Assembly (NCBI GenBank): GCA_021791635.1
Contig: JAJYWF010000009.1
Span: 1-48,442, forward strand
Direction of reading: 5' to 3'
Length of the DNA stretch: 48,442 nucleotides
DNA from: Actinomycetes bacterium
Lineage (GTDB): Bacteria > Actinomycetota > Acidimicrobiia > Acidimicrobiales > RAAP-2
This document shows positions 12,338 to 28,208 of the stretch, in pieces. A program made the translations under genes and the position numbers. The notes under the pieces were generated by a model that worked only from the letters and a program-made list of their open reading frames with translations, was not told the DNA's origin and searched no databases. How positions within the stretch are numbered: position 1 is the first letter of the stretch; every line of letters begins with the position of its first letter.

Positions 12338-12361
12338 GTGGAACGGGCTCCCCCGTTCCAC
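12338..12361 (+). other. Perfect 10-bp hairpin between rpsD and rpoA
   Basis: GTGGAACGGG (12338-12347) pairs perfectly with CCCGTTCCAC (12352-12361) around a four-base loop. It starts eight bases after the rpsD stop and ends 48 bases before rpoA. No T-run follows, so it does not look like an intrinsic terminator; it could be an RNA processing site, attenuator or protein-binding site. Confidence 0.7.
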
Positions 12362-25170: not shown

Positions 25171-25841
25171 CGACCGGGCCTTCTGACCCGCTCCGGCGGT
25201 CGAAGGGACTCGAGCGGCCCCACCAGTCGGGACCGGCGGCACCAGGGGGACCGGCCGCACCCGAGGGACCGGCGGCACCAGGGGGACCGGCGGCACCAGA
25301 GGAACCGGCCGCACCAGCGCGCGCCGTCAGGCGGCATCGGCTGGACTTCGTCCCGATGCGCCATCGTCACCTGCGCCAGGTGATGGCCATCGAGCACGCG
25401 GTGTTCCCCGAGCCCTGGAGCCTGGCCATCTTCAACTCCGAGCTGGCCTTGCGCACGGGACGGGCGTACAGGGTGGCTCGGGTGCGCCACTCCATCGTGG
25501 GATACGTGGGATTGATGATCGTCGGGACCGAAGCGCACGTCACCACCCTGGCGGTGGCCCCGGACCATCACGGGAGCGGGATGGGCACCGAGATCCTGCT
25601 CCACGCCATGCGTCTGTCCCTTGAGCTCGGGGCCCGCCAGGTCTCGCTGGAAGTGGCAGCGGGAAACACCCGGGCTCAGGCCCTGTACCGGCGCTTCGGG
25701 TTCGCGCCGGTCGGCGTGCGCAAGGGCTACTACCAGAAGACCGGAGAGGACGCGTTCGTCATGGTGGTGCACGACATCGACGCCGACGAGTACTCCCGAA
25801 GGCTGGGGGCGATAGAGGCCCGACTACGCTCCGACGGGTGA
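25167..25841 (+). CDS. rimI: Ribosomal-protein-S18-alanine N-acetyltransferase-like GNAT protein with repeat linker
   Basis: GNAT acetyltransferase; RimI acetylates the N-terminal Ala of S18. The GNAT core (about residues 60-205) has HLRQVMAIEHAVFPEPWS, YVGLMIVGTEAHVTTLAVAPDHHGSGMGTEIL (acetyl-CoA site) and AQALYRRFGFAPVGVRKGYY. The first 55 residues include five 18-nt repeats encoding Pro/Ala/Gly. GTG 25167 overlaps tsaB (GTGA); ATG 25356 would start directly at the core. Position between tsaB and tsaD is classic for RimI. Confidence 0.9.
   Translation: MTTGPSDPLRRSKGLERPHQSGPAAPGGPAAPEGPAAPGGPAAPEEPAAPARAVRRHRLDFVPMRHRHLRQVMAIEHAVFPEPWSLAIFNSELALRTGRAYRVARVRHSIVGYVGLMIVGTEAHVTTLAVAPDHHGSGMGTEILLHAMRLSLELGARQVSLEVAAGNTRAQALYRRFGFAPVGVRKGYYQKTGEDAFVMVVHDIDADEYSRRLGAIEARLRSDG
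25229..25318 (+). repeat. 18-nt tandem repeat, five copies, in the 5' part of rimI
   Basis: Five units of 18 nt (25229, 25247, 25265, 25283, 25301) close to GGGACCGGCGGCACCAGG, differing by one to four bases. They encode a GPAAPG/E-type Pro-Ala linker before the acetyltransferase domain. The period is the same as in acpS but the sequence is different. Confidence 0.95.
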
Positions 25842-26875
25842 TGACGACTGCCGACGACCGGGCCGACCAAGGCGTCGTGTTGGGCATCGAGACGTCCTGT
25901 GACGAGACGGCGGCGGCCGTGGTGGTCGGAGGGCGACAGGTGAGGTCGTCCGTGGTGTCCAGCCAGGTCGACCTTCATGCCAAGTACGGAGGTGTGGTGC
26001 CCGAGATCGCCGGCCGGGCGCACGTCGAGCTGTTCACCCAGGTGGTCGCCGAGGCACTGGAGTCGGCCGGCATCGACCCACGTGCTCCTGTGCTCGACGC
26101 CGTGGCCGCCACGTACGGCCCCGGACTGGTGGGTTCCCTCCTGGTCGGTCTCAGCGGAGCCAAGGCCCTGGCCACGAGCTGGGGCGTGCCGTTCGTGGGT
26201 GTCAATCATCTCGAAGGGCACCTGTTCGCCTCCATGTTGGAGCAACCCGACATGGGGTGGCCGCTCGTGGTTCTCTTGGTGTCGGGAGGCCACACGCTGC
26301 TGGTGGAGATGCGGGGGCCGGGGTCCTACCGGCTGCTCGGTCAGACCTTGGACGACGCCGCCGGAGAGGCCTATGACAAGGTTGCCAGGTATCTCGGGTT
26401 GGGCTACCCCGGCGGGCCGGCGATCGACAAGGCGGCCGTTGAGGGGGATCCGACGGCGTTCTCGTTCCCCCGAGCCATGCTCGGAGATGGGTTCGACTTC
26501 TCCTTCTCCGGGCTGAAGACGTCGGTGGTTCGCACCGTGGAGCGCCACCCCGAAGCCACCACCGCCGATGTGGCAGCCTCGTTCCAGCATGCGGTCGTCG
26601 AGGTGCTGGTGGCCAAGTCCCGCCGAGCGGCAGAGGCCGTCGGTGCCCGCGGGCTCTGCCTCGCCGGTGGTGTGGCGGCGAATTCGCTGCTCCGTCGACG
26701 CATCACCGAAGTCGCAGAGGAGATCGGGGTGCCGGCATACCTTCCGAGCCGGGCCATGTGCACGGACAACGCAGCCATGGTTGCCGCGGCCGGCTGGTGG
26801 CGCCTCGAACACGACGGACCGAGCCCGTTGTCGCTGGCAGCAGATCCGACGCTCTTCCTCGCGGTCCAGGGCTAA
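25841..26875 (+). CDS. tsaD: tRNA N6-adenosine threonylcarbamoyltransferase TsaD
   Basis: Catalytic subunit that transfers the threonylcarbamoyl group to A37 of ANN-decoding tRNAs. The 344-residue product has LGIETSCDETAAAVV, the metal-binding NHLEGH, VLLVSGGHTLL, DDAAGEAYDK and the C-terminal LAGGVAANSLLR and MCTDNAAMVAAA. ATG 25841 overlaps the rimI stop (TGATG); GTG 25838 is an alternative one codon earlier. Length is typical. It ends the t6A run. Confidence 0.97.
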   Translation: MTTADDRADQGVVLGIETSCDETAAAVVVGGRQVRSSVVSSQVDLHAKYGGVVPEIAGRAHVELFTQVVAEALESAGIDPRAPVLDAVAATYGPGLVGSLLVGLSGAKALATSWGVPFVGVNHLEGHLFASMLEQPDMGWPLVVLLVSGGHTLLVEMRGPGSYRLLGQTLDDAAGEAYDKVARYLGLGYPGGPAIDKAAVEGDPTAFSFPRAMLGDGFDFSFSGLKTSVVRTVERHPEATTADVAASFQHAVVEVLVAKSRRAAEAVGARGLCLAGGVAANSLLRRRITEVAEEIGVPAYLPSRAMCTDNAAMVAAAGWWRLEHDGPSPLSLAADPTLFLAVQG

Positions 26876-26899: not shown

Positions 26900-26998
26900 T
26901 GGTCCCGGCCCCGATGGGGTGCACCGCCCAGTACCTCCCAGTACCGCCCACTACCGCCCAGCACCGCCCAGCACCCCCCAACACTGGGGCCGGGACCA
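26900..26998 (+). repeat. 13-bp inverted repeat enclosing six 10-nt tandem repeats
   Basis: Between tsaD and rlmN. The left arm (26900-26912, TGGTCCCGGCCCC) is exactly complementary to the right arm (26986-26998, GGGGCCGGGACCA). Between them six decamers occupy 26921-26980, each close to GCACCGCCCA. No protein-like signal in any frame explains it. The right arm ends 65 bases before rlmN and 30 before its predicted -35. Function unknown. Confidence 0.9.
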
Positions 26999-27027
26999 TG
27001 GGACGTGGCCCCGAGGAGCGCGCCCGG

Positions 27028-27055
27028 TTGGCGTGCGACCGGCTCGGCGTAGCGT
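27028..27055 (+). promoter_or_regulatory. Predicted leaderless promoter of rlmN
   Basis: TTGGCG (27028-27033) and TAGCGT (27050-27055) are 16 bases apart; the -10 ends seven bases before GTG 27063. AGGAG (27056-27060) is too close to the GTG to act as a normal ribosome binding site. Confidence 0.55.
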
Positions 27056-27062
27056 AGGAGCC

Positions 27063-28208
27063 GTGCTCGGTCGGTACGACGCCACCATCGACGATGTGGC
27101 CGGACTCCTCCAAGGCGAGCCCGACTACCGGGTCCGTCAACTCTGGGAGGGCCTGTACCACCAGGCACGATTTCCGGCCGAGATGACCGATCTCCCCCTG
27201 GATCTCCGAGCGCGTGTCGAGGCGGCCCTTCCCATGATGCTCACCGAGGTGTCGAGGGTTACCGCTGACGGCGGCGACACGGTGAAGTGGCTGTGGTCGC
27301 TCTCAGACGGTGCGGCGGTGGAAACGGTCCTCATGTGCTACCCGGACCGGGTGACGGTCTGCGTCTCCACCCAGGCGGGCTGCGCAATGGCGTGCGGGTT
27401 CTGCGCTACCGGCCAGGCCGGTTTCCGCCGGAACCTCAGGACCGGTGAGATCGTCGAGCAGGTGATCGCCGCCATCCGGGAGGCCCGTCCCCGGCGGGTC
27501 TCGAACGTGGTCTTCATGGGAATGGGCGAGCCGTTGGCCAATTACGACCGCACCTGGGGAGCGGTGCAGCGGCTGCACACGGACGTCGGGATTTCGGCCC
27601 GTCATCTCACCCTCTCCACGGTCGGGATCGTTCCCGGCATCCTGCGTCTGACCGGCGAGTCGCTCCCGGTGAACCTGGCCGTCTCACTCCATGCCGCGAA
27701 CGACGCGTTGCGTGATTCTCTCGTGCCGATGAACCGTCGCTATCCCTTGGACATGCTGGTCGAGGCCTGTGGTTCGTACGTGGCCACCTCGGGACGGAGG
27801 CTCAGCTTCGAGTGGGCGCTGATCGACGGAGTGAACGACCACGACTCCGATGTCGAAGAGCTGGCGGGCTTGGCGAGGCCGTTGTCCGCCCACGTGAACG
27901 TCATACCGCTCAATCCGACCCGGGGGTACGAGTATCCCGGCTCCCCGCGCCGCCGGGTCCGCGAGTTCCGCGAAGCGCTCGAAGCCAGGGGGGTGAAGGC
28001 CACGGTGCGGGTGACCCGGGGATCGGACATCGATGCGGCATGCGGGCAGCTGGCCGGGGCGGCGTTCCCGGTGGCTCCGGGATCGCCGGCCCCGGGATCG
28101 CCGGCTCCGGGATCGCCGGCTCCTCTGGTGTCACCTTCGGCGGGGCCGACCGGCCAGAAGAGGACCTCGGCGGTCAAGCTGGGGATTCAGGACCGGGGCA
28201 GGGCGTAG
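27063..28208 (+). CDS. rlmN: Dual-specificity 23S rRNA (A2503-C2) / tRNA (A37-C2) methyltransferase RlmN
   Basis: Radical SAM enzyme that methylates A2503 of 23S rRNA and A37 of some tRNAs. The 381-residue product has the radical SAM motif CAMACGFC near residue 107-114, preceded by CVSTQAG, then FMGMGEPLANY, LSTVGIVPGI, LAVSLHA and NVIPLNPTRGYEY; the late catalytic Cys is in DIDAACGQLAG. GTG 27063 is the only start that fits the conserved YDATIDDVAGLL beginning. About 40 residues after the core include a PGSPA repeat and a basic end. It converges with and overlaps the next gene by 22 bases. Confidence 0.96.
   Translation: MLGRYDATIDDVAGLLQGEPDYRVRQLWEGLYHQARFPAEMTDLPLDLRARVEAALPMMLTEVSRVTADGGDTVKWLWSLSDGAAVETVLMCYPDRVTVCVSTQAGCAMACGFCATGQAGFRRNLRTGEIVEQVIAAIREARPRRVSNVVFMGMGEPLANYDRTWGAVQRLHTDVGISARHLTLSTVGIVPGILRLTGESLPVNLAVSLHAANDALRDSLVPMNRRYPLDMLVEACGSYVATSGRRLSFEWALIDGVNDHDSDVEELAGLARPLSAHVNVIPLNPTRGYEYPGSPRRRVREFREALEARGVKATVRVTRGSDIDAACGQLAGAAFPVAPGSPAPGSPAPGSPAPLVSPSAGPTGQKRTSAVKLGIQDRGRA
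28079..28123 (+). repeat. 15-nt tandem repeat, three copies, in the 3' part of rlmN
   Basis: Three units (28079-28093, 28094-28108, 28109-28123) of GGGATCGCCGGCTCC, the first with one change. In frame they encode three PGSPA-type units in a C-terminal tail beyond the catalytic core. Confidence 0.93.

Follow-up and report, generated by a model that had tools for sequence, protein, structure and literature searches.

In the window (the whole stretch of 48,442 nucleotides of DNA that was analysed), the 187-bp noncoding gap between the tsaD stop (26875) and the rlmN GTG start (27063) contains a perfect 13-bp inverted repeat that encloses a C-rich array of 10-nt units (Table 1). We give even chances to the reading that this element is a terminator-like 3' end of the tsaD operon with a slippage array in its loop. 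In the proposed mechanism, the element would be the 3'-end region of the tsaE-tsaB-rimI-tsaD operon, where the arms would pair in the mRNA to form a GC-rich stem without a U-run, displaying a C-rich and weakly structured loop. Read-through into rlmN would probably be lowered, and rlmN would start at its own leaderless promoter 30 bp downstream. The route could be either the U-less hairpin itself or the C-rich loop serving as a Rho loading site, and the decamers may represent a small slippage array that has grown within the loop. We infer both the stop or slowing of transcription at the element and its route.

If the element is a terminator, a control element at the end of tsaD that is known from Mycobacterium would extend to a distant actinobacterial order, and the gap would be a concrete test site for U-run-free transcript ends in GC-rich Actinobacteria. 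If it is not, the element would be a local curiosity of one genome.

Table 1. Features of the gap between tsaD and rlmN and of the flanking genes (positions in the window)
Feature	Position	Strand	Remarks
tsaD	25838..26875	+	TIGR03723, 414 bits; last gene of the udg-tsaE-tsaB-rimI-tsaD run
Predicted RNA stem-loop	26895..27013	+	Arms lengthened by an outer helix across a ~9-nt bulge
Left arm, perfect 13-bp inverted repeat	26900..26912	+	TGGTCCCGGCCCC
Decamer array, C-rich and G-poor	26923..26980	+	Period 10, 5.8 copies, 87% match; 34 C and 8 G of 58
G-quadruplex pattern	26927..26979	-	Six G3 runs, spacers up to 7 nt; pattern match
Right arm of the inverted repeat	26986..26998	+	GGGGCCGGGACCA; no T run after
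Likely rlmN promoter	27028..27055	+	TTGGCG, 16 nt, TAGCGT
rlmN	27063..28208	+	TIGR00048, 343 bits; start picked independently by the codon model

Gene neighbourhood and structure of the element

The window is contig 140 of a draft genome (2.46 Mb, 155 contigs, 69% GC), and the nearest named matches of its RlmN are from metagenome-assembled genomes of the Acidimicrobiales. Upstream of the gap, the genes for a family-4 uracil-DNA glycosylase, TsaE, TsaB, RimI and TsaD are encoded in one run (tsaE, tsaB and rimI were identified by NCBIfam profiles). The left arm begins 25 nt past the tsaD stop and is the exact complement of the right arm, with a loop of 73 nt between them. The units of the array are degenerate and read, in order, ACCGCCCAGT/ACCTCCCAGT/ACCGCCCACT/ACCGCCCAGC/ACCGCCCAGC/ACCCCCCA; their number is that of the draft assembly, and assembly errors can occur in short arrays. 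An earlier note on this DNA had described perfect 13-bp arms around six 10-nt repeats in a noncoding gap; we recovered the arms at the positions in Table 1 and the repeats as 5.8 copies, and all six frames of the gap scored negative in a codon model trained on the window's genome. The rlmN reading frame stays open across the gap, yet its codon score there is negative. An N-terminal extension of RlmN and a small ORF in the gap were both rejected on the six-frame codon scores and the conserved arrangement of -10 box and start.

The rlmN promoter

Between the TAGCGT hexamer (27050-27055) and the GTG of rlmN are 7 nt, and the rlmN mRNA is for this reason probably leaderless. The TANNNT-to-start arrangement has been published as a mark of leaderless genes in bacteria of high GC content (PMC3160421). 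Among 44 rlmN loci, counting that of the window, 21 have an in-frame TANNNT-N5..8-start, where shuffles would give 0.23. Across the family and the order, a TAGCST-like -10 box is kept 5-8 nt before the rlmN start (for example in L019, L024, L026, L039 and L044). As rlmN has a promoter signal of its own, the element lies between two transcription units and separates the end of one from the start of the next. Its site after tsaD and before this conserved signal argues for the terminator reading.

Other relatives (L020, L022, L025, L027, L029-L033 and L035) have rlmN abutting or overlapping tsaD, in some cases at ATGA, and the N-terminus of their RlmN is seemingly a low-complexity, Ala/Pro-rich extension. 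The arrangement suggests that in these relatives rlmN is coupled to tsaD, which would replace a separate promoter. Where rlmN abuts tsaD and has no promoter of its own, such a stem is absent as well, which again favours a terminator.

Rarity of the arms and frequency of tandem arrays

Genome statistics were obtained from a sample of 433 kb, made up of 20 stretches and the window. Its tandem arrays number 90, and the 33 in gaps have many periods and occur in all gap orientations. The decamer array taken alone is ordinary, because this genome has many short arrays in its gaps. Of the 90 arrays, that between tsaD and rlmN is the only one with arms of 13 bp within 40 nt on either side (the next best arms have 9 bp). 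By chance, such arms would flank a 58-nt stretch within the same distance at a frequency of 5e-5 per place; these rarity figures for arms and array together somewhat overstate the surprise, because the site had been picked for being striking. Perfect 13-bp inverted repeats with loops of up to 120 nt occur 12 times in the 433 kb, mostly outside gaps. Three inverted repeats in gaps of the sample have arms of at least 13 bp and a loop of 3 nt or longer, and with a loop longer than 30 nt the tsaD-rlmN element is the only one.

The main rival of the terminator reading is that of a functionless intergenic minisatellite, in which replication slippage would have produced the decamers, and either chance or template switching at a near-palindrome the arms. 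We regard it as a serious possibility, albeit one with less than even prospects. The abundance of arrays in gaps, with their varied periods and orientations, is consistent with it, as are the degenerate units, the lack of conservation and a fold no better than that of shuffles (see below). Like known intergenic minisatellites, the array is a degenerate short tandem repeat in a gap and one of many in the genome; it differs from them in being flanked by long perfect inverted arms, which are unlikely by chance, and its position matches that of a known terminator-like site in M. tuberculosis (PMC5335608).

Six minus-strand G3 runs could also form a G-quadruplex in the DNA, with an i-motif opposite, that would stall the polymerase or affect the rlmN promoter. 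Gaps make up about 10% of the sequence and hold 23 of the 99 patterns of this kind, an enrichment of about twofold. At 69% GC, however, the pattern is common (99 in 433 kb), any C-rich array yields one and the arms have no role in a DNA structure of this kind, which we consider improbable. G-runs were also seen in a divergent gap (L148:2960-3078), where an 8-bp tandem repeat of about 15 copies (CGGGGTGC) has 13 G-runs on the + strand.

Copies and conservation

In a genome-wide search, the element and its array were found to be single copy in their own genome. The comparison covered 150 genomes of the family and 298 of the order, with the genus represented by the window's genome alone. No real copy of the element was detected in the 150 family genomes, where one genome gave a 26-bp partial match to the array. 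The decamer pattern had eight single matches outside its own genome among the 298 order genomes, about the same as a reversed control pattern, and the exact pattern had four single matches in viral contigs. In 13 relatives with rlmN directly after tsaD, the gaps measure 2-104 nt and hold no comparable repeat. On these comparisons the element is lineage-restricted, and its absence from every relative searched counts against the terminator reading.

The earlier note had suggested a small dispersed element and a search for further copies of the arms and decamers. None were found, and a dispersed element is rejected on the searches of the genome itself, the family and the order. A mobile element of the MITE or REP type would account for terminal inverted repeats around a core, but the single copy in the genome, the lack of any in the 150 family genomes and the absence of an evident flanking target duplication leave this reading nearly refuted. 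Absence from relatives (about 300 searched) and the lack of other copies had been part of what the earlier note named as speaking against the element, and both were observed.

The array could alternatively be iteron-like, with one regulator-binding site per helical turn at about -80 to -140 relative to rlmN. The 10-nt period and the place upstream of the promoter agree with this, and we found no support beyond the period for phased protein binding. However, the array has no second copy in the genome and is missing from relatives, whose rlmN and promoter signal are conserved, and we hold such a function to be very unlikely indeed.

RNA folding and Rho-related features

RNA fold prediction places a weak 7-bp inner helix inside the 73-nt loop. 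The RNA of the gap was not more stable than its shuffles (z +1.37), nor was that of the element alone (z -0.72). The large stem proposed in the earlier note is the reading that holds best among its suggestions. The lack of extra stability tells against a terminator. A search of the window against Rfam 15 gave no match above the gathering score, the best near the site reaching 19.9 against 43 and 15.2 against 37 bits. The latter is a sub-threshold match to the SAH riboswitch at 27010-27075, over the rlmN promoter (E 1.2), and its score is at chance level, though RlmN is SAM-dependent.

The array is among the least paired stretches. Its RNA has a mean unpaired value of 0.52 against a background of 0.35 +/- 0.06, which places it in the least paired 0.8% of stretches. 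The 78 nt at 26905-26982 contain 42 C and 16 G, a C/G ratio of 2.6, where a rut site is expected to exceed 1. This ratio is higher than the uppermost step on the RhoTermPredict scale and is reached by 0.15% of 78-nt windows, and the array ranks third among all gap strands in C minus G. CCC is present in every 10-nt unit, in a stretch so C-rich that many spacings fit (the rut consensus is every 11-13 nt). A rho gene is present in the genome. These features argue for a terminator in which the loop would load Rho, whereas a genome-wide enrichment of C relative to G downstream of stop codons, sought as support for Rho, was not found, and C-rich arrays are present in divergent gaps too.

Compared with rut sites as described for RhoTermPredict (PMC6407284), the array is likewise C-rich, G-poor and weakly paired and lies in an untranslated 3' region, with C that may be regularly placed. 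It differs in its period of 10 nt rather than 11-13 and in lying inside a loop closed by a stem; the model was developed on E. coli, B. subtilis and Salmonella, and the Rho site here is a candidate. A more elaborate version, which we consider highly improbable, is a compound terminator in which the stem would display a tandem site for loading Rho, with one C-rich unit for each of the six Rho subunits. Its strength could vary with repeat number, which would make read-through of the tsaD operon into rlmN tunable.

Comparison with known terminators

In M. tuberculosis, the U-less hairpin TtsaD lies directly after tsaD in the alr-groEL1 operon, which includes tsaE, tsaB and rimI, and is followed by a separately promoted sub-operon (PMC5335608). 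In a reporter, TtsaD lowers downstream expression, in one orientation only (PMC5335608), and this tested precedent argues for the terminator reading. The element in the window resembles TtsaD in its place directly 3' of tsaD, in an operon with tsaE, tsaB and rimI, in its hairpin without a U-run and in a next gene with its own promoter. The two differ in that the next genes are groES-groEL1 in M. tuberculosis and rlmN here, and in that the element has a 73-nt loop with a decamer array and is predicted from sequence. The earlier note had called the structure one not explained by a known feature, to which TtsaD now offers a plausible counterpart.

A canonical terminator was rejected for lack of a U-run after the stem. 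In mycobacteria, Rho-dependent ends dominate and hairpins without a U-run are described as frequent (PMC12288462), which also favours a terminator. On the other side, M. tuberculosis Rho reportedly recognises purine-rich sequences (PMC12288462), and mycobacterial RNA polymerase may need a U-run in vitro, according to a reference (27) as quoted in PMC5335608. The I-shaped (U-less) hairpins of Actinobacteria share with the element a perfect GC-rich stem shortly past the stop codon and the lack of a U-run, a style common to other gene ends here. Their loops are short, in contrast to the 73-nt loop of the element, and because of this loop the element is not filed as an I-shaped terminator; its length, far beyond that of ordinary terminator hairpin loops, also weighs against a terminator in general.

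Other hairpins at gene ends

Of 141 gene ends of the genome, 4 are followed by a perfect stem of 10 bp or more, where 0.4 would be expected. No stem of 8 bp or more after a gene end has a T run. That other gene ends in the genome carry long perfect stems of this kind is in line with the terminator reading of the element.

Individual hairpins were also noted. One of these stems lies in the gap between rpsD (S4) and rpoA (fold z -4.0), where a perfect 10-bp hairpin (12338-12361) without a T run is followed by a C-rich stretch. Two perfect hairpins with arms of 17 and 16 bp are placed back to back at L151:18453-18528, the first of them close behind a gene end and lacking a T run.

In another family of the order, an ORF of 82 aa ends at position 1474 of L167; it had no NCBIfam match, and we take it to resemble WhiB. 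The region that follows (L167:1475-1620, fold z -7.9) is flanked by convergent ORFs and contains a perfect hairpin of about 25 bp between two decamer arrays, the first of which is C-rich and similar to that of the tsaD-rlmN gap (ACCGCCCTGA). The region resembles a terminator that acts in both directions and is built with decamers.
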